This document shows, in pieces, positions 30,312 through 43,972 of a DNA stretch of 64,000 nt. The notes below the pieces were generated by a model. It was not told where the DNA came from and made no database searches. It was given only the letters and a program-made list of their open reading frames with translations. Source of the stretch: Ensifer sp. LC163 (GTDB taxonomy: Bacteria > Pseudomonadota > Alphaproteobacteria > Rhizobiales > Rhizobiaceae); contig NZ_MBSS01000004.1 of NCBI RefSeq assembly GCF_001695855.1, positions 1 through 64,000 of the forward strand, read 5' to 3'. Both the position numbers and the translations under genes were made by a program. The stretch's first letter is position 1. Every line of letters starts with the position of its first letter.

Positions 30312-30412
30312 CTGCATAATTCCTTAAATCGGATCCGATTTAAGGATGAAATTATGCAGCAAATTTAAAGCATTACAGCGCCGCGCGTCATATTTGACGC
30401 GCGGCGCTGTAG
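30312..30412. repeat. Two-palindrome intergenic repeat, copy 2
   Basis: A 101-bp element. The first palindrome has outer arms CTGCATAATT/AATTATGCAG and a perfect inner 24-bp palindrome at 30322-30345. The second is a long hairpin, ACAGCGCCGCGCGTCA with TGACGCGCGGCGCTGT around four bases (30375-30410). It provides the last seven codons and the TGA stop of the AGE-epimerase gene. It is nearly identical to copy 3 at 60202, with a 4-bp difference in length. Confidence 0.92.
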
Positions 30413-31587
30413 AGGCGCGCGAGGCAATCCCGTGTTTCATAGATCGCACAAAGGATGTGATAGAAGCTGCTGGCCGGCGCCGGTTCATCGACGAACGAGC
30501 CATCGGCCTTCTGCTTGTCGCGCCACAACCCGGCAACGGGCGTCTCCAGGAACAATCCAAGCGCGGCCGCAGCACGCGCGGCCGAGGCGAGATAGCGCTC
30601 GCGCTCGGCACCGTCTGTGAGGGCTGCAAACCGGACGGAAGCCTTCAGCCATTCCGTCTGCGGCCACAGCCGCGCAATCGGATCGGCAACCGAGAAATCA
30701 TCAAGCAGCGTCATGACAGCGACATTGCGGTTCGGGCAGATCCCATGCGCTTCGCCGATCTCGAAGAGCCGCCGCGCCTTGACAATGGCTTCGGCATTGC
30801 CGCGCCGCTCGGCCCAGCGCAACAGCAGCCAGGCCCATTCGAACAGATGGCCCGGCTCGACGATGTGTCCCTTGTCGCCGGGGAACGGCGCCCAGTCGTG
30901 GTCGAAAAACTCCCGCAGCGCGCCGGTATCGCCGTCGATGAAGTGATCCATCGCCAGATGAGCGATCTCGTCGGCAAGGTTGGACCAGGCGACACGGTCA
31001 AAGCCCTCGACCTCTTCGCTGGCCAGGCATGCTTCGAACAGGTGCATGTGCGGATTGGAGCACAGCGGCAGCCGCGACGGATCATCCTCCTCGAAGCCGA
31101 CGAGCGGATGCTTGCAATGGGCTTCGAGACGCTGGCGCAAACCGTTGCTGCGCTCGACCATCTCCGGCTTGCGCTCCGGGAAGACCTCGGCCAGATAGGC
31201 GAAGGCCAGCAGCGCGAAAGCCTGATTGTAGAGATCGAAGGAAGCATCGATGGGGTTGCCATCGGCATCCGCAAGCGCGCCGTAAAAACCTGTCGGCTGC
31301 AGATAGACGCGATCGAAATAGCCAAGTCCGCCCTCGGCGGCCCCCTGCCAGTCGCCGCTCCAGCCGCGCCTGCCGGCCTCAGCGAAACAATAGACCTGGC
31401 GCGGCTGCACCCGCGCCCGGCGGTTGGCGCGCGTCGGCTCGCCCTGCATGTCGATGGTCTCGACGAAACCGCCGCCGCCAGCATCGACGCCCTTTTCGCG
31501 CCAAAGCGGCAGGGCCTTTTCAGCCAGCCACGCCGACAGGGTGGCGGATTGCGAGAAAATATCCTGCGGCAACGGTTCAGCCCTCAA
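30388..31587 (-). CDS. AGE family epimerase/isomerase (mannose isomerase-like)
   Basis: A 399-aa (alpha/alpha)6-barrel enzyme of the N-acylglucosamine 2-epimerase/mannose isomerase family. Family blocks include GGFVETIDMQGEPTRANRRA, RQVYCFAEAGRRGW, LYNQAFALLAFAYL, NPHMHLFEACLA and EPGHLFEWAWLLLRW, with conserved active-site His/Glu. It overlaps the UPF0303 gene by 11 bp and lies downstream of a ROK kinase, so it probably interconverts mannose/fructose or a phosphate form. Its final residues YSAARQI and stop come from repeat copy 2, so the native C-terminus has been replaced. Confidence 0.9.
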   Translation of the reverse strand: MRAEPLPQDIFSQSATLSAWLAEKALPLWREKGVDAGGGGFVETIDMQGEPTRANRRARVQPRQVYCFAEAGRRGWSGDWQGAAEGGLGYFDRVYLQPTGFYGALADADGNPIDASFDLYNQAFALLAFAYLAEVFPERKPEMVERSNGLRQRLEAHCKHPLVGFEEDDPSRLPLCSNPHMHLFEACLASEEVEGFDRVAWSNLADEIAHLAMDHFIDGDTGALREFFDHDWAPFPGDKGHIVEPGHLFEWAWLLLRWAERRGNAEAIVKARRLFEIGEAHGICPNRNVAVMTLLDDFSVADPIARLWPQTEWLKASVRFAALTDGAERERYLASAARAAAALGLFLETPVAGLWRDKQKADGSFVDEPAPASSFYHILCAIYETRDCLARLYSAARQI

Positions 31588-32071
31588 GCTTCAGTTCATC
31601 ATGGTTCTTGCCGAGCAGTTCGGCCAGCGCCTCGACCACCATGTTGTGGTCCTCGCGCTGCGGCAGGCCGGACACGGTCACCGCACCGATGCAACCCGTG
31701 CCCTTGACGACGATGGGGAAGCTGCCGCCATGGGCGGCATAGTCAGCATCCGAAAGCCCGAGCTTCGCCTGCAGATTGGTCTGCTGCTTCAACAGCCCAA
31801 GGCCTGTCGAATAGCTGCTCTTGAACAGGCGAAAAACGGTGTTGCGCTTGCGGCGCACCCAGTTCGGATTGTCAGGCGTCGCGCCTTCAAGCGCGGCATA
31901 GAACACCTGCATGGAAAACAGCGTGATGTCGATGACGACGCCGAGCTTGCGTTCGGCGGCCATGCGGCGCAGCGTCGAGCCGAGCTGCCATGCGGCTTCC
32001 AGGTCGAAACTGTCAAACTGCAGTTCGTGCTCCTGGTGGGCGATGCGCTTGAGATCACTGTCAATATTCAT
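31577..32071 (-). CDS. UPF0303 / heme-degrading-domain family protein
   Basis: A 164-aa protein of the UPF0303 family (HbpS/GlcG-like fold, often labelled heme-degrading domain). Conserved blocks are FDSFDLEAAWQLGSTLRRMA, VVIDITLFSMQVFYAALEGA and HGGSFPIVVKGTGCIGAVTV. The ATG at 32071 has the ribosome site GGAGG. It sits 11 bp after the ROK kinase gene and overlaps the AGE gene, making it the middle gene of a three-gene operon. Its role in sugar metabolism is unknown. Confidence 0.9.
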   Translation of the reverse strand: MNIDSDLKRIAHQEHELQFDSFDLEAAWQLGSTLRRMAAERKLGVVIDITLFSMQVFYAALEGATPDNPNWVRRKRNTVFRLFKSSYSTGLGLLKQQTNLQAKLGLSDADYAAHGGSFPIVVKGTGCIGAVTVSGLPQREDHNMVVEALAELLGKNHDELKLEG

Positions 32072-32082
32072 GAAGCCTCCGC

Positions 32083-32979
32083 TCAATCCTTCCAGAGCCA
32101 AGCCGCACCGCGCACGCCGGAGCTGTCCCCGTGCACCGCCTTGCGGATCGGCGTTTCGAAACTGTCGCCAAAGAGATAGTTGACCACCAGCGGTGGGACG
32201 TCCTCATAGATCTCGTCAACATTCGACATGCCTCCGCCGAGCACGAAGACATCGGGGTCGACGATGTTGGTCAATAGCGCAAGGCTGCGCGCCAGCCGGT
32301 CGACGAAACGGTCATAGACGCCTGACGCCACCGGATCGCCCGCCCGCTTTGCTTCGATGATATCGCGCCCACGCTTTTCGACGCCGGTGGTCAGGCGATA
32401 GTCGAGCTCGACCCCGGTGCCGCAGGCATACATGTCGAGGCAGCCGTGTTTGCCGCACCAGCATTTGTGGCCGGGATATTCGTCCTTCGTCATCCACGGC
32501 AGCGGATAATGGCCGATCTCGGCGGCGACGCCCTGATAGCCGGCATGCACCCTCTTGCCGATCGCAAGGCCGCCGCCATGCCCCGTGCCGACGATCACGC
32601 CGAACACGGTCTGCGCGTCCTTGCCAGCGCCGTCGACCGCCTCCGACACCGCCAGGCAATTGGCGTCGTTGGCAAGACGCACCTTGCGGCCGAGCGCCAG
32701 CTCGAGATCCCGCCCGAGCGGCTTGCCGTTGATCAGCACGGCGTTGGAGTTGCGCACGATGCCGGTGCGCGGATTGGGACTGCCGGGAATGCCGATGCCG
32801 ATCGAGCCCTGTTCGCCCGCCGTCTTTTCGGCGGCGGCCACGAGGTCGAGAACGGCCCGAATACAGTCGTCATAGCCGCTGGTCGGCGTCGCGACACGGT
32901 GGCGGGCGCGCGTTTCGCCATCGCGATCGAGCGCGATGACTTCCATTTTCGTGCCGCCCCAATCAATTCCGATGAACAT
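32083..32979 (-). CDS. ROK family sugar kinase (mannokinase/fructokinase type)
   Basis: A 298-aa ROK kinase. The phosphate-binding N-terminus is FIGIDWGGTKMEV, the substrate/catalytic region NDANCLAVSEA, VIVGTGHGGGLAIG is the ATP loop, and the zinc site KCWCGKHGCLDMYACG follows the CxCGxxGCxE pattern, with Asp in place of the last Glu. First gene of an operon with UPF0303 and an AGE epimerase, suggesting a mannose/fructose entry route. The ATG at 32979 has a weak ribosome site; an in-frame extension to 33033 is rejected. Confidence 0.92.
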   Translation of the reverse strand: MFIGIDWGGTKMEVIALDRDGETRARHRVATPTSGYDDCIRAVLDLVAAAEKTAGEQGSIGIGIPGSPNPRTGIVRNSNAVLINGKPLGRDLELALGRKVRLANDANCLAVSEAVDGAGKDAQTVFGVIVGTGHGGGLAIGKRVHAGYQGVAAEIGHYPLPWMTKDEYPGHKCWCGKHGCLDMYACGTGVELDYRLTTGVEKRGRDIIEAKRAGDPVASGVYDRFVDRLARSLALLTNIVDPDVFVLGGGMSNVDEIYEDVPPLVVNYLFGDSFETPIRKAVHGDSSGVRGAAWLWKD

Positions 32980-33244
32980 GTCTGGATCAGGTCTCTGGGT
33001 GAGGGTCGCATGAGGGAGCGCCAACCTCCTCAAGCCGGCGCCAATCCCTGCTTAGCATTCGAAAGACCGGAAACGCCAGCCCCCGATTTCGGCACGCATC
33101 GGTAGAGGGGGAGCACGTCATCGGGCCGGCGCGATCCGCCATCCCGAGCATCGCCGGCACCGCGCGCCGCGCCCGATTTCGCGAAGGGACCGTGCAAAAA
33201 CACTTGGCGAAGACGCCTTGCTTTTGTATGGGTGCTATCCGAGT

Positions 33245-33321
33245 GGTCCCGTAGCTCAGCAGGATAGAGCACCAGATTCCTAATCTGGGGGTCGCGCGTT
33301 CGAATCGCGCCGGGATCACCA
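33245..33321 (+). tRNA. tRNA-Arg (anticodon CCT)
   Basis: A 77-nt cloverleaf. Acceptor GGTCCCG pairs with CGGGATC, the D-arm begins GCTC, the anticodon stem CCAGA/TCTGG encloses loop TTCCTAA with anticodon CCT, and the T-arm GCGCG/CGCGC encloses TTCGAAT. Discriminator A and an encoded CCA end at 33321. It reads AGG codons. There is no integrase or att duplication next to it. Confidence 0.95.
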
Positions 33322-33779
33322 TTCTTCTCGTCAGCAAGACAACGCACAGGCACACCGCTCTGCCCGGCCGGCGGGCGTGGGACAATACCAATCAGTCATC
33401 TTGCGGCTCCCGCCGCGCCTGCCATTCGCCTTTCCGGTGATCGGGGCGTGCGTCCGTTCGCCTGCAACGGTGACGGGGCGCCGCGCATAAACATCTGAAA
33501 AGTTGGAATTTTCTTCGGCGCTCCGCCACCGATGTCGCCGTGCCCAGGCGTCGAGCACCGCGCTCCACTTCATCGCCGCGCCTCTCCATAGCTCACACGT
33601 CGATTCTCTCCTCGAGACGTCGCTCTTGCGTCCATCGCCTCGGTTGGTTGCCAGACGCCTGCCACCGCACCGGCTGCTTTTTTGCTGCGGCTTGACATTT
33701 CCGTAAGCTCGACCTTATCATTCCAATATAAAGTATCTTAGTACATAACTATGAAATAAAAATAAGAGAGGAACATACG
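33322..33779. other. Intergenic region between tRNA-Arg and the peptide-type ABC operon
   Basis: 458 bp with no supported gene. The promoter-proximal third (33680-33779) becomes AT-rich and carries the promoter at 33692-33721. No duplicated tRNA 3' end or insertion remnant is visible. Confidence 0.55.
33692..33721 (+). promoter_or_regulatory. Sigma-70-type promoter of the ABC/amidohydrolase operon
   Basis: A -35 TTGACA (33692-33697) and a -10 TATCAT (33716-33721) are separated by 18 bp (17 bp if TTATCA is used). They lie about 60 bp before the binding-protein start in AT-rich sequence. Confidence 0.6.
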
Positions 33780-35309
33780 ATGAAATCAGCAAGGATCGCA
33801 CTGCTTCTGGGAACGGCGCTTATCGCCTCCTCGTCATTCGCCTTCGCGCAGGAAAAGGGTGGGGTCATCAACGTCGCCACGGTTGGCGAGCCGCCGACGC
33901 TCGATCCGATGGCGTCGACCGCAGACCTGGTCGGCATCGTCTCGCAGCATATGTTCGAGACGCTCTACACCTTCGACAAGGATTGGAAGCCGACGCCGCT
34001 TCTGGCCGCCGCCCTCCCGGAGATCAGCGCCGACGGCAAGACCTACACGATCAAGCTGCGCTCCGGCGTCAAGTTCCATGACGGCACCGACATGGATGCA
34101 ACCGATGTCATCGCTTCGCTCGAGCGCTGGACGAAGACGGCGTCGCGCGGCAAGCAGACGGCAACGACGATTGCCGGCATCGAGGCCGTCGACCCGACCA
34201 CAGTGAAAATCTCGCTCAACTCGCCCTATGCGCCGCTGGTCTCGCTGCTCGCCTTCAACAATTCCGCCGCGATCGTGCTGCCTTCGGAAAGGCAGGCCGA
34301 GCCGATGGTCGATTTTGTCGGCACCGGCCCCTACCAGCTCAAGGAGCGCAAGGCCGACCAGTACATCCAGCTGACCCGTTTCGACGCCTACAGGTCGCCG
34401 GAAGGTGAAGCCAATGGCTATGGCGGCGCCCGCCACCAATATGCCGACGAGATCCGCTTCGTGCCGGTGCCGGACCCGAACACCCGCGTCGAGGCCGCCG
34501 TCTCGGGCCAGTACGACTATGTCGATTCGCTGCCGGTCGAATCCTTCGATCGGGTGAAGGGCTCGAGCGCCTCCGAGCCGGTGATGCTGCAGCCCTTCGG
34601 CTGGCCTGTCTTCGTGCTCAACTCCGGCAACGGCATGACCAAGAACCTGGAGCTGCGCAAGGCGATCCGCGCAGCCCTCAGCATGGAAGACATGATGGCG
34701 GCGGCCTTCGGCAGCACCGACTTCTACGCCCTCGATGCTGCTCTCTACCCCGCGCAATATGTCTGGCGCACCGAGGCCGGCACCGAAGGCGGCTACAATA
34801 TCGCCGATCCGGAAAAGGCGGGCGAACTGCTGAAGGCCGCTGGCTACCAGGGCGAGCCGCTGCGCATCCTGACCAGCCGCCAGTACGAGTTCCACTACAA
34901 GATGGCCCAGGTTGCCGCCGAATATCTCAAGCTTGCCGGCTTCACCGTCGACATGCAGGTGGTGGATTGGGCGACGCTCACCCAGCGCCGCGCCGATCCG
35001 ACGCTCTGGGATATCTACATCACCCACAGCCCGTTCCTGCCCGAACCGGCGCTGATCGGCATGATGTCGACGAAGGCGCCCGGGAACTGGGATACGCCGG
35101 CCCGCGCCAAGGCGGTCGATGCCTTCAACGCCGAATCGGATGCAGGCGAGCGCGTCGCCCGCTGGGCCGATGTTCAGAAGGTGATCTACGAGGAAGTGCC
35201 GTTCATCAAGATCGGCGATTTCAATGCCCTGTCGGCCAAGACCAAGACGCTTGACGGCGTCTCTCCCGCGCCGTGGCCCTACTTCTGGAACGCTTCGATC
35301 AAGAAGTAA
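33780..35309 (+). CDS. ABC transporter substrate-binding protein, peptide/opine/nickel type (SBP_bac_5)
   Basis: A 509-aa periplasmic binding protein with a signal peptide (cut at AFA-QE, about residue 23) and the cluster-C fold (GVINVATVGEPPTLDPM, then KTYTIKLRSGVKFHDGTDMD). It has the size and type of DppA/OppA relatives. It is the first gene of an operon with two permeases, an amidohydrolase and a RidA protein; the ATPase is encoded 6 kb further on. Context suggests an acylated amino acid or small peptide ligand. Confidence 0.95.
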   Translation: MKSARIALLLGTALIASSSFAFAQEKGGVINVATVGEPPTLDPMASTADLVGIVSQHMFETLYTFDKDWKPTPLLAAALPEISADGKTYTIKLRSGVKFHDGTDMDATDVIASLERWTKTASRGKQTATTIAGIEAVDPTTVKISLNSPYAPLVSLLAFNNSAAIVLPSERQAEPMVDFVGTGPYQLKERKADQYIQLTRFDAYRSPEGEANGYGGARHQYADEIRFVPVPDPNTRVEAAVSGQYDYVDSLPVESFDRVKGSSASEPVMLQPFGWPVFVLNSGNGMTKNLELRKAIRAALSMEDMMAAAFGSTDFYALDAALYPAQYVWRTEAGTEGGYNIADPEKAGELLKAAGYQGEPLRILTSRQYEFHYKMAQVAAEYLKLAGFTVDMQVVDWATLTQRRADPTLWDIYITHSPFLPEPALIGMMSTKAPGNWDTPARAKAVDAFNAESDAGERVARWADVQKVIYEEVPFIKIGDFNALSAKTKTLDGVSPAPWPYFWNASIKK

Positions 35310-35423
35310 GCTTTCACCCACTTGAAGCCTTCGGCGGGTGGTCTTTCCCTTCAGGGATTGCTGCCCGCCGGATAGCCCGGCGCTGCTTTGTCGGCGCCCG
35401 TGCGGAAGAAGTTCGAGGCACTC

Positions 35424-36365
35424 ATGATACGCTATATCCTCCAGCGCCTGTTCGGCATGATCGTGGTCATGGCGCTTGTCGTCACCATTGTCTTCGTCAT
35501 CGTGCGCGTGACGCCCGGCGATCCCGCCGCCGTCATGCTCGGGCCGGAAGCAACCCAGCAAGACATAGCCGACTTGAGAACCAAGCTTGGCCTCGATCAG
35601 TCGCTCGGCCTGCAATATGTCTACTATATCGGGCAGTTGCTGCAGGGCGATCTCGGCCAGTCGATCTTCCTCAACCAGCCAGTCACCTCGGCGCTTGCCG
35701 AACGGGCCGAGCCGACCTTCTTCCTCACCCTGTTTTCGATCCTGATCGCCAGCGCCATTGCGCTTCCGATCGGCATCTACGCCGCCTACCGGCGCGGCTC
35801 CTTCGTCGACCAGGCCGCCACCACGCTGGCAATGCTCGCCGCCAGCATTCCGAGCTTCTGGCTCGGCCTCATCCTCATCCAGATCCTCGCCGTGCGCCTC
35901 GGCTGGTTCCCGGTTTCGGGTTACGGCGGCCCGGGCGCGTCCTTTGTCGAGCGCATGTACCATCTCACGCTGCCGGCAATTGCGCTCGGGGTCGTCTCCT
36001 CGGCACTGATCCTGCGTTTTACCCGTGCCTCGATGCTCGACGTTCTCGGCGACGACTTCATCCGCACCGCCCGCGCCAAGGGCCTGGGCGAGCGCCGCGT
36101 GGTGATGAAACACGCCCTGAAGAACGCCCTTATCCCGATCCTGACGATCATCGGCCTGACCGCTGCCGTCCTGATCTCCGGCGCCGTCGTCACCGAAACC
36201 GTCTTCGGCCTTCCCGGCGTCGGCAATCTCGTCGTCTCGGCCGTGCTCAGGCGCGACTACCCGGTGATCCAGGGCGCGCTTCTGGTGATCGCCGCTCTGT
36301 ACGTGCTGATCAATTTCGCGATCGACATGCTCTACCTCCTCGTTGATCCAAGGGTTCGCTACTGA
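35424..36365 (+). CDS. Peptide-type ABC permease, DppB-like
   Basis: A 313-aa permease with six membrane segments. N-terminal MIRYILQRLFGMIVVMALVV, the periplasmic loop motif VTPGDPAAVMLG and the coupling helix RFTRASMLDVLGDDFIRTAR (EAA-type motif) are typical of DppB. ATG 35424 follows GAGG; an extension to 35388 has no ribosome site. It is coupled to the DppC-like gene (TGATG). Confidence 0.94.
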   Translation: MIRYILQRLFGMIVVMALVVTIVFVIVRVTPGDPAAVMLGPEATQQDIADLRTKLGLDQSLGLQYVYYIGQLLQGDLGQSIFLNQPVTSALAERAEPTFFLTLFSILIASAIALPIGIYAAYRRGSFVDQAATTLAMLAASIPSFWLGLILIQILAVRLGWFPVSGYGGPGASFVERMYHLTLPAIALGVVSSALILRFTRASMLDVLGDDFIRTARAKGLGERRVVMKHALKNALIPILTIIGLTAAVLISGAVVTETVFGLPGVGNLVVSAVLRRDYPVIQGALLVIAALYVLINFAIDMLYLLVDPRVRY

Positions 36366-37234
36366 TGACCGTCACCGTATCAACCCCTGTCGAAAGCGAA
36401 CGAGCCAAGTTCCTGCGCCGCCTGCTCAAGCGCAAGACCGTGGCCTTCGGTCTCTTCATTCTCCTCGTCTTCGTGCTTTTGGCCGTCTTTGCGCCGCTGA
36501 TTGCGCCCTACGCACCGGGCAAGCTGTCGATCGTCAACCGTCTGTCGCCACCGAGCATGCGATGGTTCTTCGGCACCGACGAATTCGGTCGCGACGTGTT
36601 TTCGCGCACGATCTATGCCGGCCGGCTGTCGCTGCTGGTCGGCGCTGCCGTCGTCACGCTCGCGACGATCGTCGGCGTCGTCATGGGGCTTCTCGCCGGC
36701 TTCTTCCCGAAGCTCGACGCGCCGATTGCCCGCCTGATCGACGCGATGATGGCCTTTCCCGATATCCTGCTGGCGATCGCGCTTGTCGCTGCCCTCGGCC
36801 CGTCGCTGACGACGGTGATCGTTGCGCTCAGCGTCGTCTACGCGCCGCGGCTGGCGCGGGTGGTGCGCGCCTCGACGCTGGTAATCCGCGAACTGCCCTA
36901 TGTCGAGGCGGCCCGGGCACTCGGCATCTCGACGCAGCACATCATGACGCGGCATGTGCTGCGCAACCTGCTCTCGCCGCTCCTGGTGCAGGGCACGTTC
37001 CTGTTTGCCCATGCCATGCTCGCCGAAGCCGGGCTTTCCTTCCTCGGTGTCGGCGTCAGCCCGGAAATCCCGACCTGGGGCACGATGATCGCCTCGGGTC
37101 GGCAATATATCGGACAGGCCGATTGGGTGACGCTGTTTCCCGGCATCGCCATCGTGCTTTCGGTCCTGTCCCTGCAGATGGTTGGCGACGGTTTGCGCGA
37201 CATGCTCGACCCCCGCCTCAGAAAGGACCTGTAA
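36365..37234 (+). CDS. Peptide-type ABC permease, DppC-like
   Basis: A 289-aa permease with a cytoplasmic N-terminus, an OppC-type N-terminal helix and the family motif FFGTDEFGRDVFSRTIYAGR, and the EAA loop LPYVEAARALGISTQHIMTR. It overlaps the DppB-like stop by one base and is followed after 3 bp by the amidohydrolase, showing tight co-expression of transport and hydrolysis. Confidence 0.94.
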   Translation: MTVTVSTPVESERAKFLRRLLKRKTVAFGLFILLVFVLLAVFAPLIAPYAPGKLSIVNRLSPPSMRWFFGTDEFGRDVFSRTIYAGRLSLLVGAAVVTLATIVGVVMGLLAGFFPKLDAPIARLIDAMMAFPDILLAIALVAALGPSLTTVIVALSVVYAPRLARVVRASTLVIRELPYVEAARALGISTQHIMTRHVLRNLLSPLLVQGTFLFAHAMLAEAGLSFLGVGVSPEIPTWGTMIASGRQYIGQADWVTLFPGIAIVLSVLSLQMVGDGLRDMLDPRLRKDL

Positions 37235-37237
37235 TCC

Positions 37238-38449
37238 ATGCCCACCGCAAACCGTAGCACCAGCCCCGTGCTGATCAGCAACGTGAAGCCCGTCACCTTC
37301 GGCATGGCGGCGCCGGCCGAAACCGTCGATATCCTCATCGGAGGCGACGGCATCATCGCCGGCATTGGCAGCCAACTGGCAGCACCTGAAGGCGCCACGC
37401 GCATCGACGGCAACGGCGCCTGGATCTCGCCCGGCTGGATCGACCTTCACGCCCATGTCTGGCATGGCGGCACCGATATCTCGGTCAGGCCGCAGCTCTG
37501 CGGCATGGAGCGCGGCGTCACCACGATCGTCGATGCCGGTTCGGCCGGCGAAGCCAATTTTCACGGCTTTCGCGAATACATCATCGAGCCGGCGCGCGAG
37601 CGCATCAAGGCCTTCCTCAATCTCGGCTCCATCGGTCTCGTCGCCTGCAACCGCGTCAGCGAACTCAGCGACATCCGTTCGATCGATATCGACCGCATCA
37701 TCGCCTGCTACCAGGAAAACCGCGAGCATATCGTCGGCCTGAAAGTGCGCGCCAGCCACGTGATCACCGGCTCCTGGGGCGTGACCCCGGTCAGGCTCGG
37801 CAAGAAGATCGCCAAGATCCTGAAGATCCCGATGATGGTGCATGTCGGCGAACCGCCGGCACTCTATGACGAGGTGCTGGAAATCCTCGGCCCCGGCGAC
37901 ATCGTCACCCATTGCTTCAACGGCAAGGCCGGCTCGAGCATCATCGAGGACGAGGATCTGTTCGAACTCGCCGAGCGCTGCGCCGGCGAAGGCATCCGCC
38001 TCGATATCGGCCATGGCGGCGCATCCTTCTCGTTCCGCGTCGCGGAAGTCGCCATCGCCCGCGGCCTGCTGCCCTTCTCGATTTCCACCGATGTGCATCT
38101 GCGCAGCATGAACCAGTCGGTCTGGGATCTCGGCACCACCATGTCGAAGCTGCTCAGCGTCGGCATGCCGTTCGAAAAAGTCGTCGAGGCCGTGACCCAT
38201 GCGCCGGCCTCGGTCATTCGCCTGCCGATGGACAACCTTCTGAGCGTCGGCGCTCGCGCCGAATTCACCCTCTTCGATCTCGTTGATTCCGATCTGCGCG
38301 TCTTCGATTCGCTGGGAACCGAAGCGCATCTCAATCGCCTATTCGAGCCGCGCTACGCCGTCATGGGCACCAACGTCGTGGCGGCAAACCGATACCAGCC
38401 GCAGCATGTCGAATGCCCCGACCACAGCCACGGCTACAGCTACCGCTGA
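37238..38449 (+). CDS. Amidohydrolase/deacetylase family metallohydrolase (cog3964 type)
   Basis: A 403-aa amidohydrolase-superfamily enzyme with a complete binuclear metal site: H71 and H73 (DLHAHVWHGG), bridging Lys169 (VGLKVRASHV), H202 (MMVHVGEPP), H225 (VTHCFNGK) and D285 (ISTDVHLRS). It belongs to the group often mislabelled dihydroorotase/D-aminoacylase. As I recall, characterised cog3964 members from Agrobacterium and Ochrobactrum hydrolyse acetyl-(R)-mandelate, with natural substrates unknown. Enterococcal relatives are encoded beside SelA-like PLP enzymes, as here. Likely role: removing an acyl group from the imported compound. Confidence 0.92.
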   Translation: MPTANRSTSPVLISNVKPVTFGMAAPAETVDILIGGDGIIAGIGSQLAAPEGATRIDGNGAWISPGWIDLHAHVWHGGTDISVRPQLCGMERGVTTIVDAGSAGEANFHGFREYIIEPARERIKAFLNLGSIGLVACNRVSELSDIRSIDIDRIIACYQENREHIVGLKVRASHVITGSWGVTPVRLGKKIAKILKIPMMVHVGEPPALYDEVLEILGPGDIVTHCFNGKAGSSIIEDEDLFELAERCAGEGIRLDIGHGGASFSFRVAEVAIARGLLPFSISTDVHLRSMNQSVWDLGTTMSKLLSVGMPFEKVVEAVTHAPASVIRLPMDNLLSVGARAEFTLFDLVDSDLRVFDSLGTEAHLNRLFEPRYAVMGTNVVAANRYQPQHVECPDHSHGYSYR

Positions 38450-38484
38450 ACCATCACAGACCACATAAACTGGCAGGATATCGC

Positions 38485-38985
38485 GTGAACAGTTTGGACC
38501 ACAAGACAAAGGGCCATGCGCCGGCTTCGCCCTACCAAAGGCTCGCCGCCCTCGGCATCGACCTGCCGCCGGCGCCGCCGCCGATTGCCAACTTCGTCAC
38601 CCACGTCCAGGAGGGCAACATCCTCTACCTCTCCGGGCAGGGCCCGCGCGAAGTCGACGGCCACCTGCATGCCGGCAAGGTCGGCGCCGACGTCGACATC
38701 GAAAGCGCCTACGAGCACGCCCGGCTGACGGGCATCAATCTGCTTGCGGTGATGCACGACGCGCTGGGCGATCTCGGTCGCGTCAAGCGCGTCGTCAAGA
38801 TCCTCGGCATGGTCAACGCCGTGCCGGAATTCGCCGATCACCCGCAGGTGATCAACGGCTGCTCGGACCTGATGATCGACGTCTTCGGTGACGCGGGACA
38901 GCATGCCCGTTCAGCCGTCGGTTTCGGGTCGCTTCCCGGCAACATCACCGTCGAGATCGAAGCGATCGTCTCGCTTCACGCGTGA
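38485..38985 (+). CDS. RidA/YjgF family protein
   Basis: A 166-aa RidA-family protein with the longer YjgF form: SPYQRLAALGIDLPPAPPPI, NILYLSGQGPREVDG and a C-terminal half including ARSAVGFGSLPGNITVEIEA. The family hydrolyses reactive enamine/imine intermediates released by PLP enzymes; the RidA-type active-site Arg is replaced by Gly-Phe-Gly-Ser-like residues in this subgroup, so activity may differ. The start is GTG 38485 with GGCAGGAT upstream. Its position between the amidohydrolase and a PLP lyase supports intermediate clearance in that pathway. Confidence 0.88.
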   Translation: MNSLDHKTKGHAPASPYQRLAALGIDLPPAPPPIANFVTHVQEGNILYLSGQGPREVDGHLHAGKVGADVDIESAYEHARLTGINLLAVMHDALGDLGRVKRVVKILGMVNAVPEFADHPQVINGCSDLMIDVFGDAGQHARSAVGFGSLPGNITVEIEAIVSLHA

Positions 38986-39004
38986 CGGTCCAAGGGAGCT
39001 CGGA

Positions 39005-39784
39005 TCAATGGCTGCGCCAGCCCATCATCTTCTCGATCCGCTCGGCGGAAACCCTGACGTGATCGGCGTAGAAGTCGCGATCGTCGAGGATCTTCTGTTC
39101 GGGCAGAACGATGGAGATGGTCGCGACGCAACTCCCCTTGTCGTCGAGGATCGGTGCGGCGACGCAGGCGACCGCATAGTCGGATTCACCAGCCTGGATC
39201 GAAAGCTTGGCGGCAAGCGCCGTCTCGGCCTGGCTCGACAGTGCCGCCGGATCGATATCGGCCCGTCCGGTCGGCGACGTGCGGGCGCAACGGCGGAAAA
39301 GTTCCAGCCGTTCGTCGGAGGGCAGATGGCCGACCAGCAATCGTCCCGACGCCGTCCAGTTGAGCGGCACCCGGGTGCCGACCCTGGATGTCACCTGAAA
39401 ATGCCCGGGACCGTCGGCCATGGCAAGCACCTGCATATAGTCGCCGTCGCGGCCGCAGAGCTGGATGGTTTCGGCAACCTCGCGGCCGAGATCGTGCATC
39501 TCCCGCGTCGCGACCCCGAGGAAATCGAGCGAGCGCGCATAGGCAAGACCATAGTGATAGAGCCGGTCGCCGAGCCAGACCTGGCCGTCGGCGTCGCGGC
39601 TGAGCAGGTTCTTTTCCACCATGTCGTCGACGATGACATAGGCCGTCGACAGCGGTGCACCCACCGCCTTGGCGATGGCGTAGACGCCACTCGGAGAGCC
39701 GGTCTCGTAGAGAAAGTCGAGCACCTGCAGTGCCCGATCCATACCGCTCACGCGCGAGCGGCGGGTTTTTGCGGTCGGCTCCAT
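39005..39784 (-). CDS. IclR family transcriptional regulator
   Basis: A 260-aa IclR-type regulator. N-terminal winged helix (about 12-75: SGMDRALQVLDFLYETGSPS, then LSTAYVIVDDMVEKNLL) and a C-terminal GAF-like effector domain (RVGTRVPLNWTASGRLLVG, ASCVAAPILDD-like AVACVAAPILDDKG). The ATG at 39784 is preceded by GAGGCGAGG. It is divergent from the SelA-like gene and faces the RidA gene, placing the regulator at the centre of the cluster it probably controls. Confidence 0.92.
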   Translation of the reverse strand: MEPTAKTRRSRVSGMDRALQVLDFLYETGSPSGVYAIAKAVGAPLSTAYVIVDDMVEKNLLSRDADGQVWLGDRLYHYGLAYARSLDFLGVATREMHDLGREVAETIQLCGRDGDYMQVLAMADGPGHFQVTSRVGTRVPLNWTASGRLLVGHLPSDERLELFRRCARTSPTGRADIDPAALSSQAETALAAKLSIQAGESDYAVACVAAPILDDKGSCVATISIVLPEQKILDDRDFYADHVRVSAERIEKMMGWRSH

Positions 39785-39952
39785 GTCCTCGCCTGGCTCG
39801 GCGGCAATTGTCGTCTTGTCCAAGGGTCTGCTCCCGCGCAATTCGAAATTCGCAACAGATGGGCGGGCAGCGGCGGCTTCCCGCCTCACCCGCGACAACG
39901 GCCGGCTCGTCACTCCGAAACCGCCCGTTCATATCTCATTACTATGGTAGAT

Positions 39953-39970
39953 ATTCCGCGAAAACGGAAT
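39953..39970. promoter_or_regulatory. Candidate IclR operator
   Basis: ATTCCG-N6-CGGAAT, perfect 6-bp arms, lies 44 bp before the SelA-like gene and in the 229-bp divergent gap with the iclR-type gene. The spacing and TTCC/GGAA core resemble known IclR-family sites. Confidence 0.6.
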
Positions 39971-40013
39971 AGCTTACCTATTTCGACTGCCAGAAAAACA
40001 TATGGAGACCACC

Positions 40014-41213
40014 ATGCCTGACCGCGACATCCGCGAAGCTCTCGGACTTCGCCCAGTTATCAACGTATCCGGCACGATGACCAGCCTCGGCGCATCGATC
40101 GTGGTCCCGGAAGCGATCGCCGCGATGACAGGCATACTGCCGCAATTCGTCGAGATCAACGACCTGCAGCGCAAGATCAGCCCGGTGATTGCCCGGCTGA
40201 CCGGCGCTGAGGCCGGCTTCGTCACCGCCTCCTGCTCCGCGGGCATCAGCCTTGCCGTCGCCGGCACAATGACCGGCGACAACATCGCGGCGATCGAGCG
40301 CCTGCCCGACGCGACCGGGCTGAAGAACGAAGTCATCATCCAGATGGGCCATGTCGTCAGCTATGGCGCGCCGGTCGATCAGGCAATCCGCATTGCCGGC
40401 GGCAAGCCGATCCTTGTCGGCCAGGCGACATCGGCCTATCGCTATCACCTCGAAGGTGCCATCAACGAGCGCACGGCGGCCGCTGTCTACGTCGTCTCCC
40501 ACCATGTCGTGCAATACGGCCTTGTCGGTCTCAAGGAATTCGCCGAAGCCTGCCATGCCAAGGGCGTGCCCGTGATCGTCGATGCGGCCTCCGAATACGA
40601 CCTGAAGATCTTCCTTGAGCAGGGCGCGGATATCGTCCTCTATTCCGGTCACAAGTTCCTGGGCGGCCCGACCTCGGGCATCGTCGCCGGCGAGAAGACG
40701 CTGGTGCGCAACGCCTTCCTGCAGAACCTCGGCATCGGCCGCGGCATGAAGGTCGGCAAGGAAAGCATGCTCGGCGTGATGGCAGCGCTGCTCGCCTGGG
40801 AAACGCGCGACCACCAGGGGATCCGCGACCGCGAGACCGGCTATCTCCATCTCTGGCGCGACACGCTTGATGGCCGCCCGGGCATCAAGCCGGTGATCGA
40901 AGCCGATCCGACCGGAAATCCGCTTGATCGCCTGCGCGTCACCATCGATCCGCAGGAAGCCCACATCACCGCCTGGGATCTCGCCGATGCATTGGCCCGA
41001 GGTCAACCGCCGGTGATCGTGCGCGACCACGAAGTCGAGCATAACTACTTCTACCTCGACCCCTGCAATCTGCACCCCGGCCAGGAAACCATCGTGGCGA
41101 ACCGCCTTTCCGAGGAACTGACGACGGCGCGCGGCTCCAACGAGATCATCGCCACGCCGCTGGCGGACCGCAACGCCCGCCGTTTCACCAGCCTGTTGCG
41201 CTGGCCCGACTGA
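40014..41213 (+). CDS. SelA-related PLP-dependent enzyme (DgaE-like)
   Basis: A 399-aa fold-type I PLP enzyme related to selenocysteine synthase SelA. The Schiff-base Lys214 lies in [14 protein letters not shown], Asp190 in [11 protein letters not shown], and the N-terminus is [18 protein letters not shown]. Relatives include D-glucosaminate-6-phosphate ammonia-lyase (DgaE) and uncharacterised proteins next to cog3964 amidohydrolases. ATG 40014 uses ribosome site GGAGACC, so the upstream ATG 40002 is less likely. No selB/selC lies nearby, so Sec synthesis is unlikely; an alpha,beta-elimination on an amino acid is the likeliest reaction. Confidence 0.9.
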
Positions 41214-41258
41214 GACCGATCCGCCACCATCCGCGCAGAACGACAAGGAATGTGAGAC

Positions 41259-43091
41259 ATGACCCGCACCGACGCTGCCACTGACCCATTGAGAGCCCCC
41301 GTGCTTTCGGTCGAGAACCTGACGACCTCGTTTCTGGTCGACGGCACCTGGAAGCCGGTGGTGCGGGACATCTCGTTTTCGGTCATGCCGGGAGAGACGG
41401 TGGCGATCGTCGGCGAATCCGGCTCCGGCAAGAGCGTCACGTCGCTGTCGATCATGCGCCTCTTGCAGAAGGACATGAGCCGGACCGAGGGGCGTGTCAT
41501 GCTCGGCGGCCGCAACATCCTCGACCTGCCGGAAAGCGACATGCGACGCGTGCGCGGCAATGACGTGGCGATGATCTTCCAGGAGCCGATGACCAGCCTG
41601 AACCCGCTGTTCACCATCGGCGACCAGATCTCCGAAGCGCTGCTTTGCCATCGGCCGATGAGCAAGGCGGAGGCGAAGGCGGAAACCATTCGCCTGCTCG
41701 ACAAGGTCAGGATCCCGTCGGCGGCGTCCCGTTTCGACGAATACCCGCATCGCTTCTCCGGCGGCATGCGCCAGCGCGTCATGATCGCCATGGCGCTTGC
41801 CAGCCGTCCGAAGCTCCTGATCGCCGACGAACCGACGACCGCGCTCGATGTCACAATCCAGGGGCAGATCCTCGACCTGATCAAGGTGCTGCAGGAGGAG
41901 GAAGGAACCTCCGTCCTGTTCGTCACCCATGACATGGGCGTGGTTGCGGAGATTGCCGACCGCACGGTGGTGATGTTCCGCGGCGAAGCGGTGGAGACCG
42001 GCCGGACGGACGACATCTTCCTGCGCGCGAAACATCCCTATACCCGCGCGCTTCTCTCAGCCGTGCCCATGCTCGGCTCTATGAAGGGCAGGCCGCAGCC
42101 GCTGCGCTTTCCTGTTATCGACAGCATCACCGGCCTGCCGGATACGCCGGCCGAGGGAACAAGCACGGTCGCGGCGGCCCGCCCGATCCTTGAGGTGAAG
42201 AACCTCGTCAAGCGCTTCGACATTCATGCCGGCCTCCTCGGCAGACTGCAGGGCCGCGTGCACGCCATCGAGAACGTGTCCTTCAGCCTGCAGCCAGGCG
42301 AGACGCTGTCGCTCGTCGGCGAATCCGGCTGCGGCAAATCGACGACCGGTCGCGCCATCATGCGCCTGATCGAGCCGCAGAGCGGATCGGTCGTTCTCAA
42401 CGGTCAGGACGTACTTGCCATGGATCGCAAACGCTTGCGCGAAATGCGCCGGACCATGCAGATGATCTTCCAGGATCCCTTTGCCAGCCTCAACCCGCGC
42501 ATGACCGTGGGCGCCGCGATCGCCGAACCCTATCTCGAGCACAAGCTCGGCACCGCGAGCCAGGCCCGAGACAAGGTCGCCGACCTGCTCGAGCGCGTCG
42601 GCCTGCAGGCCGACATGGCCGCGCGCTATCCGCACGAATTCTCCGGCGGACAGCGCCAGCGCGTCTGCATTGCCCGGGCGCTGGCGCTCGATCCGAAGGT
42701 CATCGTTGCCGACGAGTCGGTCTCGGCGCTCGACGTCTCGATCAAGGCGCAGGTCATCAATCTCCTGCTCGACCTGCAGGCGAGCCTCGGCCTTGCCTAT
42801 CTCTTCATCTCGCACGACATGGCCGTCGTCGAGCGCGTCAGCCATCGCGTCGCGGTGATGTATCTCGGAGAGATCGTCGAGATCGGCCCGCGCGCCGACA
42901 TCTTCGAGAACCCGCAGCACCCTTATACTCGCAAGCTCATGGCTGCCGTGCCGATCGCCGACCCGACCCGGCGTCACACCAGGCGCAATGTCGCCAGCGA
43001 CGAGATCAAGAGCCCGATGCGGGCGCCCGATTACGTCGTTGCCGCACGGGAATACCGCCAGATTTCGGCCGAACACTTCGTGCAGGTGTAA
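41259..43091 (+). CDS. Fused double ATP-binding protein of peptide-type ABC transporter (DppD-DppF fusion)
   Basis: A 610-aa protein with two complete nucleotide-binding domains. First: Walker A GESGSGKSV (about 52-60), signature FSGGMRQRV, Walker B LLIADEPTTALDV. Second: Walker A GESGCGKST (about 353-361), signature FSGGQRQRV, Walker B VIVADESVSALDVS, followed by the oligopeptide-transporter C-terminal segment. It supplies both ATPase units for the DppB/C-like permeases at 35424-37234, and no other ATPase is near. It is separated from them by the metabolic genes and the IclR gene. Confidence 0.95.
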   Translation: MTRTDAATDPLRAPVLSVENLTTSFLVDGTWKPVVRDISFSVMPGETVAIVGESGSGKSVTSLSIMRLLQKDMSRTEGRVMLGGRNILDLPESDMRRVRGNDVAMIFQEPMTSLNPLFTIGDQISEALLCHRPMSKAEAKAETIRLLDKVRIPSAASRFDEYPHRFSGGMRQRVMIAMALASRPKLLIADEPTTALDVTIQGQILDLIKVLQEEEGTSVLFVTHDMGVVAEIADRTVVMFRGEAVETGRTDDIFLRAKHPYTRALLSAVPMLGSMKGRPQPLRFPVIDSITGLPDTPAEGTSTVAAARPILEVKNLVKRFDIHAGLLGRLQGRVHAIENVSFSLQPGETLSLVGESGCGKSTTGRAIMRLIEPQSGSVVLNGQDVLAMDRKRLREMRRTMQMIFQDPFASLNPRMTVGAAIAEPYLEHKLGTASQARDKVADLLERVGLQADMAARYPHEFSGGQRQRVCIARALALDPKVIVADESVSALDVSIKAQVINLLLDLQASLGLAYLFISHDMAVVERVSHRVAVMYLGEIVEIGPRADIFENPQHPYTRKLMAAVPIADPTRRHTRRNVASDEIKSPMRAPDYVVAAREYRQISAEHFVQV

Positions 43092-43095
43092 AGGA

Positions 43096-43114
43096 CGGCG
43101 CTGAAATCGCGCCG
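43096..43114 (+). terminator. Possible weak terminator hairpin
   Basis: CGGCGC and GCGCCG (6-bp arms, 7-base loop) lie 5 bp after the fused ATPase stop. No T-tract follows, so this may be a Rho-dependent end or an RNA-stabilising hairpin. Confidence 0.3.
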
Positions 43115-43246
43115 GCACTCGTCGGGCTTCCGCCACGCCGGATGCAGCCGCTCGACTTTGGCAACATCCTTGACCATGAAAGCGATCTCCGGTGGCGTAC
43201 GACTGCCTCGCCCGCGTCCATTGCCTGGAAGGTCGGGATGAGCGTG

Positions 43247-43972
43247 TCAGCCGGCCGCCTTGCAGGCGATCCCGGCATCATTCTCGCCCTTCGTCGCGTC
43301 GTAGAGCGTTGCCTCGTTGCCCTTCGTCCACCAGATGTACTGGCCGCCGGCATATTTGGCGCCCGATCCGGAGATCACGTTGGAGGCGACGATGAAGTTG
43401 CCGTCGATGGTAAAGGTCACCAAGGAGACCGGGCCGGCATTGATGTATTCGGCTTCGACCGTCTTGCCGCCGCAATCATAGCGAACCGCTTGGCGATCGA
43501 CCGTCTCGGCATCCGGAATGGAGATCGTGACATCGACACTGCCTGATCCGCCCGCCGTCATCGACGCGAGTGTCAGTGCCGGCGCACCGGTCGGCTTGGC
43601 GAGGATCAGTTTGGAGCTTTCGACTGCCCAGGAAAGCTCGGTGCGCAGCGCCTCGAAGAACTTCTGCTCCTGGTCCATCACCGCCGGCACGCACATCTTG
43701 CGCGTCGAGGCCGCCGGCCCGAAGGTGATCTTCGCGCCCGAAAGGCTGAACGTTCCGGTGAAATGGTTGCAGCCGGCCATGCCGCCATAGGTCCCGTCGT
43801 CACGGATCTCCAATGTTGACTGAAGGTTGTCGATGACCCCGCGACCGGCGATGTCTTCGGCAAGCCAGGTGCCGACAAGTTGCTGCGGCACGTTCTCGGC
43901 GGCGACCGTCTGCATCGAAGCCATTTCGATCAGCACGCAGGCGCAGGAAAGGGCGGCGGCGACTTTCAGCAT
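43247..43972 (-). CDS. META domain-MliC domain fusion, secreted
   Basis: A 241-aa exported protein with a signal peptide (about 1-25) and two domains. A META/HslJ domain (about 30-130: LVGTWLAEDIAG, GGMAGCNHFTGTFSLSGAKI, STRKMC) and a C-terminal MliC-type lysozyme-inhibitor domain (about 158-241: VRYDCGGKTVEAEYINAGP, YAGGQYIWWTKGNEATLYD). MliC proteins protect peptidoglycan from C-type lysozyme, and META domains occur in stress-linked envelope proteins. It is convergent with the ABC operon and divergent from dxr. Confidence 0.88.
   Translation of the reverse strand: MLKVAAALSCACVLIEMASMQTVAAENVPQQLVGTWLAEDIAGRGVIDNLQSTLEIRDDGTYGGMAGCNHFTGTFSLSGAKITFGPAASTRKMCVPAVMDQEQKFFEALRTELSWAVESSKLILAKPTGAPALTLASMTAGGSGSVDVTISIPDAETVDRQAVRYDCGGKTVEAEYINAGPVSLVTFTIDGNFIVASNVISGSGAKYAGGQYIWWTKGNEATLYDATKGENDAGIACKAAG

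Follow-up and report, generated by a model that had tools for sequence, protein, structure and literature searches.

Within a 64,000-nucleotide stretch of DNA from Ensifer sp. LC163 (contig NZ_MBSS01000004.1, positions 1 to 64,000; hereafter the window), eight genes at positions 33780-43091 form a cassette that encodes a peptide-type ATP-binding cassette (ABC) transporter, an amidohydrolase, a Rid-family protein, an IclR-family regulator, and a pyridoxal phosphate (PLP) enzyme related to SelA and DgaE. Many soil and root bacteria carry the eight-gene set, and all seven partners of the PLP gene were identified at 62 of 72 loci encoding homologs of that gene. An original prediction, made from the sequence alone, had proposed a single import-and-catabolism module. 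Our observations support this proposal in that the genes are co-inherited and probably co-regulated, and the separation of homologs in other genomes, which the prediction had named as grounds for abandoning it, did not arise. Specifically, we consider it reasonably probable that the cassette is an inducible unit that would import a capped amino acid, deacylate it, subject the product to PLP-dependent alpha,beta-elimination, and hydrolyze the resulting imine with the help of the Rid protein, under IclR control. Open reading frame (ORF) listing and family scans bore out the eight genes together with their originally predicted order and strands:

33245..33321, + strand: tRNA-Arg (CCT), identified with ARAGORN; the cassette starts just past its end
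33692..33758, + strand: promoter/operator-like region of the operon that begins with the solute-binding protein (SBP), kept in 63 aligned upstream regions, window sites scored (TTGACA, 33692-33697; left half, 33719-33732; right half, 33743-33758)
33780..35309, + strand: periplasmic SBP, SBP_bac_5 (ORF and family scan)
35424..36365, + strand: DppB-type permease, BPD_transp_1 (ORF and family scan)
36365..37234, + strand: DppC-type permease, BPD_transp_1 (ORF and family scan)
37238..38449, + strand: cog3964 amidohydrolase/deacetylase (AH), close relative of PDB 2OGJ (family score, metal ligands, alignment)
38485..38985, + strand: Rid-family protein, Rid1-like, predicted imine deaminase (PF14588/PF01042)
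39005..39913, - strand: IclR-family regulator, with 39784 as a possible true start
39932..39971: operator-like sequence in the iclR-PLP intergenic region (motif match, 39932-39947; inverted repeat, 39952-39971)
40014..41213, + strand: SelA/DgaE-like PLP enzyme, predicted to be an ammonia lyase (the ORF opens at 40002)
41259..43091, + strand: fused DppD-DppF ATPase (DppDF; ORF and family scan)

Gaps between ORFs were 114 bp (SBP-DppB), -1 bp (DppB-DppC), 3 bp (DppC-AH), and 45 bp (PLP-ATPase). Judged by eye on the upstream sequence, the Rid gene probably starts at the GTG at 38485 rather than at 38413, and 40014 is a likelier start than 40002 for the PLP enzyme; the start of iclR is uncertain. 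The top NCBIfam match of the fused ATPase was GsiA, at 852.2 bits (below the cut-off of 1077).

The 72 loci were found by scanning genome contigs with the PLP protein alone, an approach that relies on exact peptide patterns and hence favors close relatives. A partner was scored as present at a locus if it was at least 45% identical and encoded within 11 kb. By this measure, SBP and DppB were each detected at 66 loci, DppC, AH, Rid, and IclR each at 68, and DppDF at 64. Genes outside the cassette recurred at only four (ROK) or five (META and DXR) loci and, given the 62 complete sets, this indicates that the cassette is a real unit. Among the ten incomplete loci, two (L040 and L041) are on short contigs and four (L087, L095, L100, and L101) lack the set at the 45% threshold, with AH still encoded at 38% (L100) and 33% (L101) identity. 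The cassette in a record titled Mycobacterium sp. KBS0706 (L093) is near that of Inquilinus limosus, and the label of that record is doubtful.

In a sample of 151 genomes from the family, 23 encode an AH with at least 50% identity and 25 encode the PLP gene. Every AH genome also has the PLP gene, and 23 of the 25 genomes with the PLP gene encode AH; the remaining two comprise an amino-acid-ABC variant (G042) and a 76% complete genome in which the gene is partial (G043). Pairwise distances of AH and the PLP enzyme were correlated (r 0.93; 68 loci), and those of DppB and IclR were correlated equally well, which means that only common descent of the unit is shown by this relationship.

The AH scored 433.9 bits against NF006689, above the curated cut-off of 371, and all six residues of the binuclear metal site that had been claimed for it (H71, H73, K169, H202, H225, and D285) were found at those positions. 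Among 78 relatives with at least 50% identity, the first five were kept in 78/78 and D285 in 77/78, with one gap. To our knowledge, Atu3266, which we take to be the protein of PDB 2OGJ, has no assigned natural substrate or operon role. The AH is identical to 2OGJ at 303 of 395 aligned residues (77%), and every metal ligand is kept. Dihydroorotase and adenine deaminase labels for this protein were ruled out by the family scores and by the published discussion of 2OGJ; that article describes 2OGJ as an A. fabrum protein and, for a cog3964 member misannotated as dihydroorotase, refers to Ornelas et al. (2013) (PMC12524618).

The best solved relatives of the PLP enzyme were 7LC0 (E 1.1e-77) and 8T7J, and the nearest that is both solved and named is D-glucosaminate-6-P ammonia lyase (DgaE). 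The enzyme is a relative rather than a formal member of TIGR01437 (selA_rel; 318.8 bits, cut-off 385.3). DgaE proper was ruled out, since the score against its equivalog NF047797 (308.7 bits) was far below the cut-off of 600 and an arginine of the phosphate site is lost, as was a true selenocysteine synthase (TIGR00474; 57.2 bits versus 267.9). The Schiff-base lysine of the original prediction is present, as Lys214 if translation begins at the likelier start, 40014, but as K218 if the ORF is read from 40002. Equivalents of the DgaE catalytic lysine and of His-163 are present in the window enzyme (K218 and H168). Across 89 relatives with at least 50% identity, the lysine was kept in 89/89, H162 in 89, and H163, the proton donor in DgaE (PMC9529869), in 87. 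In the same article, manual docking places R301, R332, and R346 around the phosphate, with R226 near the carboxylate. Equivalents of R301 and R332 were kept in all 89 relatives, while R346 is replaced by C355 in the window and by Cys in 88/89, such that the DgaE phosphate cluster is incomplete. We read this loss as pointing to a lyase for a non-phosphorylated substrate.

The presence of a Rid-family protein, part of the original prediction, was supported. The arginine in its HARSAVG stretch, which may correspond to Arg105 of RidA, was invariant in 81/81 rows. Among the solved relatives of the cassette protein are PA0814 and ACIAD3089, Rid1 proteins for which imine deaminase activity has been measured (PMC5619798). 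An arginine rule for Rid imine deaminases is given in PMC4433059.

Exchange of partners around the PLP gene bears on its substrate. At nine loci (L087, L095, L162, L164-L166, L182, L183, and L194), the PLP gene is accompanied by genes for two small permeases and an ATPase, and the binding protein was SBP_bac_3 in each of the seven examined (L087, L095, L162, L164, L165, L182, and L183). No AH match (tblastn, E 1e-5) was detected in the 9.5-21 kb around these nine loci, which is the portion of those genomes that was covered. Two genomes (G073 and G083) contain both the AH and the amino-acid-ABC kinds. In a tree of 52 rows, from which 54 of 106 rows (each at least 76% identical to the window) had been thinned out and L170 (with AH) and L194 omitted, deacylase and amino-acid-ABC labels fell in one supported PLP clade. 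The labels require five changes (deacylase) and four changes (amino-acid ABC), with at least three of each forced by well-supported branches. That AH and a peptide ABC can be swapped for a polar amino-acid ABC without AH suggests that the PLP enzyme probably acts on a free amino acid, which would be the simplest common element delivered to it by both arrangements.

Further neighborhoods of the PLP gene were noted, of which those at L087, L167, L171, and L176 count toward the pathway proposed below. An extra gene at L087 encodes a D-serine-dehydratase/alanine-racemase fold, with 3-hydroxy-D-aspartate aldolase as the best NCBIfam match (288 bits, below the cut-off of 690). Genes for a gamma-glutamyltranspeptidase and oxoprolinase-type (hydantoinase A/B) proteins adjoin the PLP gene at L167 (6335-14542), where an SBP-like gene product is 26-27% identical to the window SBP. 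M81/MlrC, distant AH, and FMN_dh genes were identified near it at L171 and L176, and a distant AH with Dpp genes at L168.

Evidence for shared regulation was obtained by aligning regions upstream of SBP from the window and from the loci that remained (62 of 72) once ten with unfitting gene order or orientation had been omitted (L040, L041, L087, L090, L092-L095, L100, and L101). A TTGACA and two TATTC-type half sites in inverted orientation could be aligned across all 63 regions. The right-half matrix matched the iclR-PLP intergenic region in 63/63 cases, each match being reached by at most 10 of 200 dinucleotide shuffles; the loci are related, and the 63 matches are hence not independent tests. 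Dinucleotide shuffles were used in place of random genomic segments, which are confounded by A+T content as a control. These results indicate that one operator-like motif precedes both operons, from which we infer that IclR may control both.

Collectively, from gene content, co-location, residue conservation, the shared motif, and partner exchange, all of which were observed directly, we infer each reaction, its stereochemistry, the order of steps, and the role of the regulator. We favor an N-acylated, D-configured beta-hydroxy amino acid as the substrate. The SBP, DppB, DppC, and fused DppDF would import an amide-capped, probably N-acylated, amino acid, and the cog3964 AH would take off the cap. 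The SelA/DgaE-like enzyme would then catalyze PLP-dependent alpha,beta-elimination, in which the beta substituent (most likely a hydroxyl) leaves the freed, probably D-configured amino acid. The enamine/imine would be hydrolyzed to a keto acid and ammonia, aided by the Rid1-like protein, with IclR responding to a pathway compound and governing both operons via the shared site. Removal of a cap before PLP deamination, as originally predicted, stands as the best reading, while the choice between N- and O-acyl groups, the D-configuration, and the beta-leaving group are still conjectural. More tentatively, root-associated bacteria may use the cassette as an undescribed route to process N-acylated D-beta-hydroxy amino acids whose side chain is perhaps bulky. 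In that case, the SelA-like enzyme would be a new ammonia lyase, acting on D-beta-hydroxy amino acids that carry no phosphate and passing its imine to a dedicated Rid1.

Several observations weigh against this pathway. Atu3266 reportedly acts best on acetyl-(R)-mandelate, an ester, and several orders of magnitude more weakly on N-acetyl-D-serine, which makes for a poor fit with a simple N-acetyl amino acid; furthermore, the loop after D285 is unlike that of 2OGJ in the window (L288, R289, Q293, and S294) and in part of the relatives. The equivalent of DgaE R226 is E231 in the window and is variable among the 89 relatives, which disfavors a simple carry-over of the DgaE docking. At six of the nine amino-acid-ABC loci, nothing matched the window Rid or IclR; a Rid match adjoins the PLP gene at L182, L183, and L194 and at none of the other six, suggesting that the link to Rid is not universal. 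The fused ATPase is absent at four of the 72 loci (L065, L077, L088, and L091) though the contig continues. In Rhizobium johnstonii 3841 (pRL11) and in a second genome (G029), ~30 kb separate AH and iclR from the other cassette genes, which means that shared genome presence does not always equate to adjacency. On pRL11, SBP-DppB-DppC-Rid-PLP-ATPase are at 489451-496567 and AH with iclR at 455265-457344 (L201 and L214; the corresponding loci of the second genome are L189 and L190). Finally, in the window itself the motif is matched weakly ahead of the PLP gene, at a score reached by 6 of 200 shuffles; a perfect inverted repeat, TATTCCG-CGAAAA-CGGAATA (39952-39971), adjoins this match.

Three other substrates or activities were weighed. 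The cassette might act on N-acetyl-D-glucosaminate (GlcNAc1A; the chitin monomer oxidised at C1), a special case of capped amino acid import, with AH yielding D-glucosaminate and the DgaE-like enzyme yielding 2-keto-3-deoxygluconate for the Entner-Doudoroff pathway. The relationship of the PLP enzyme to DgaE, the existence of gene clusters with AH, DgaE-like, and KDGP aldolase genes, two KDPG-aldolase-family matches in the genome, and the ong cluster, which performs such chemistry with a RidA protein (PMC9537276), are consistent with this substrate. Nevertheless, we consider it unlikely: the eight genes include no sugar kinase or aldolase, the transporters are of the peptide and amino-acid class, the third phosphate-site arginine is lost, no LPMO_10 match was found in the genome, and OngB and OngC are described in the same text as members of other families.

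We regard as rather improbable that AH is instead an esterase for acylated (R)-2-hydroxy acids, with the PLP enzyme on another branch or acting on an amino moiety freed from the same larger ligand. The identity of AH to 2OGJ, which reportedly has such activity in vitro, and its intact metal ligands favor this reading; the co-occurrence of the AH and PLP genes in every AH genome (23/23) argues against it. A dipeptide or opine-like conjugate containing a D- or beta-substituted amino acid, cleaved by AH as a peptidase and not a deacylase, would suit the SBP_bac_5 protein and Dpp/Gsi-type permeases, as well as the gamma-glutamyltranspeptidase or M81/MlrC genes that relatives carry close to a PLP gene of this family. 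This too seems improbable, as AH belongs to an amidohydrolase/deacetylase equivalog (NF006689) in which we know of no peptide activity. Import and deacylation of a capped amino acid remains our preferred interpretation. It would place a close relative of the structurally solved 2OGJ in a physiological context, confine a still unnamed SelA/DgaE branch to free amino acids as substrates, and predict a class of soil or root metabolites as food for many Hyphomicrobiales.

The boundaries of the cassette were examined by comparison with close relatives. A genome of the same genus (G071) lacks window positions 33323-43245 and has other DNA 3' of tRNA-Arg(CCT). Window positions 30412-33322 and, in pieces, 43246 onward align to parts of L215 separated by 1.7 kb, with nothing between them aligning, and the left break is one base beyond the tRNA. 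In five close relatives (L031-L035), the cassette sits between tRNA-Arg(CCT) and META. The left flank is common to the window and four of these; L031 shares only part of the tRNA there. The 0.8-0.9 kb from ATPase to META in these relatives, most of it missing in the window, holds a small ORF that is VOC-protein-like by eye. The protein downstream of the cassette (43247-43972) joins META and MliC lysozyme-inhibitor domains. A mobile island with an integrase and flanking repeat was rejected: the final 18 bases of the tRNA did not recur exactly elsewhere in the window, and no composition shift was evident.

Comparison with known systems places the cassette among previously described chemistries. 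The AH shares most of its residues and all metal ligands with Atu3266/2OGJ and differs in the loop after D285. The PLP enzyme belongs to the same broad family as DgaE and keeps the lysine, the loop histidines, R301, and R332, but has Cys at R346, is associated with an ABC transporter rather than a phosphotransferase system, and is encoded in a cassette without a KDGP aldolase gene. The pairing of AH and SelA-like genes in other bacteria, as originally claimed, was recovered in clusters that include those of L100, a Bacillota genome, and L203, a Bartonella plasmid, both of which also encode KDGP aldolase. Those clusters (an EF_0837-type group by name) have homologous AH and PLP genes, next to each other in L203 and at a distance of five genes in L100, but unlike the cassette have DUF4310-4312/SFCGS genes and PRD regulators. 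On the plasmid of Bartonella sp. HY406 (L203, 2961-5935), AH, DgaE-like, and KDGP aldolase genes occur with DUF4310-4312 and, unlike in the cassette, no ABC, Rid, or IclR gene is annotated in that stretch.

The original prediction had held that no described pathway matches this gene set, a claim that is not supported, given the close relationship of AH to 2OGJ and the parallel ong set of marine Pseudoalteromonas (PMC9537276). Judging by title, no paper on the full eight-gene cassette was found among the matches listed in the open PMC literature, with subscription papers outside that scope. The cassette is a module of known enzyme kinds around a relative of a solved enzyme. In PMC9537276, OngB, OngC, and KdgK act in turn on GlcNAc1A, the oxidised chitin monomer, OngC is also active on D-serine and D-threonine, and the RidA protein OngD is essential, with its role left unexplained there. 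Both systems combine a deacetylase, a PLP deaminase, and RidA for an imported N-acetylated amino-acid-like compound. The ong cluster differs in having a D-aminoacylase-like OngB, a fold type III OngC, an SSS importer, a MurR/RpiR regulator, and KdgK; these families are taken from that description, whereas those of the cassette (cog3964 and SelA/DgaE-like) were assigned by score. By this analogy, the cassette appears to follow the logic of the ong pathway with enzymes of other families.

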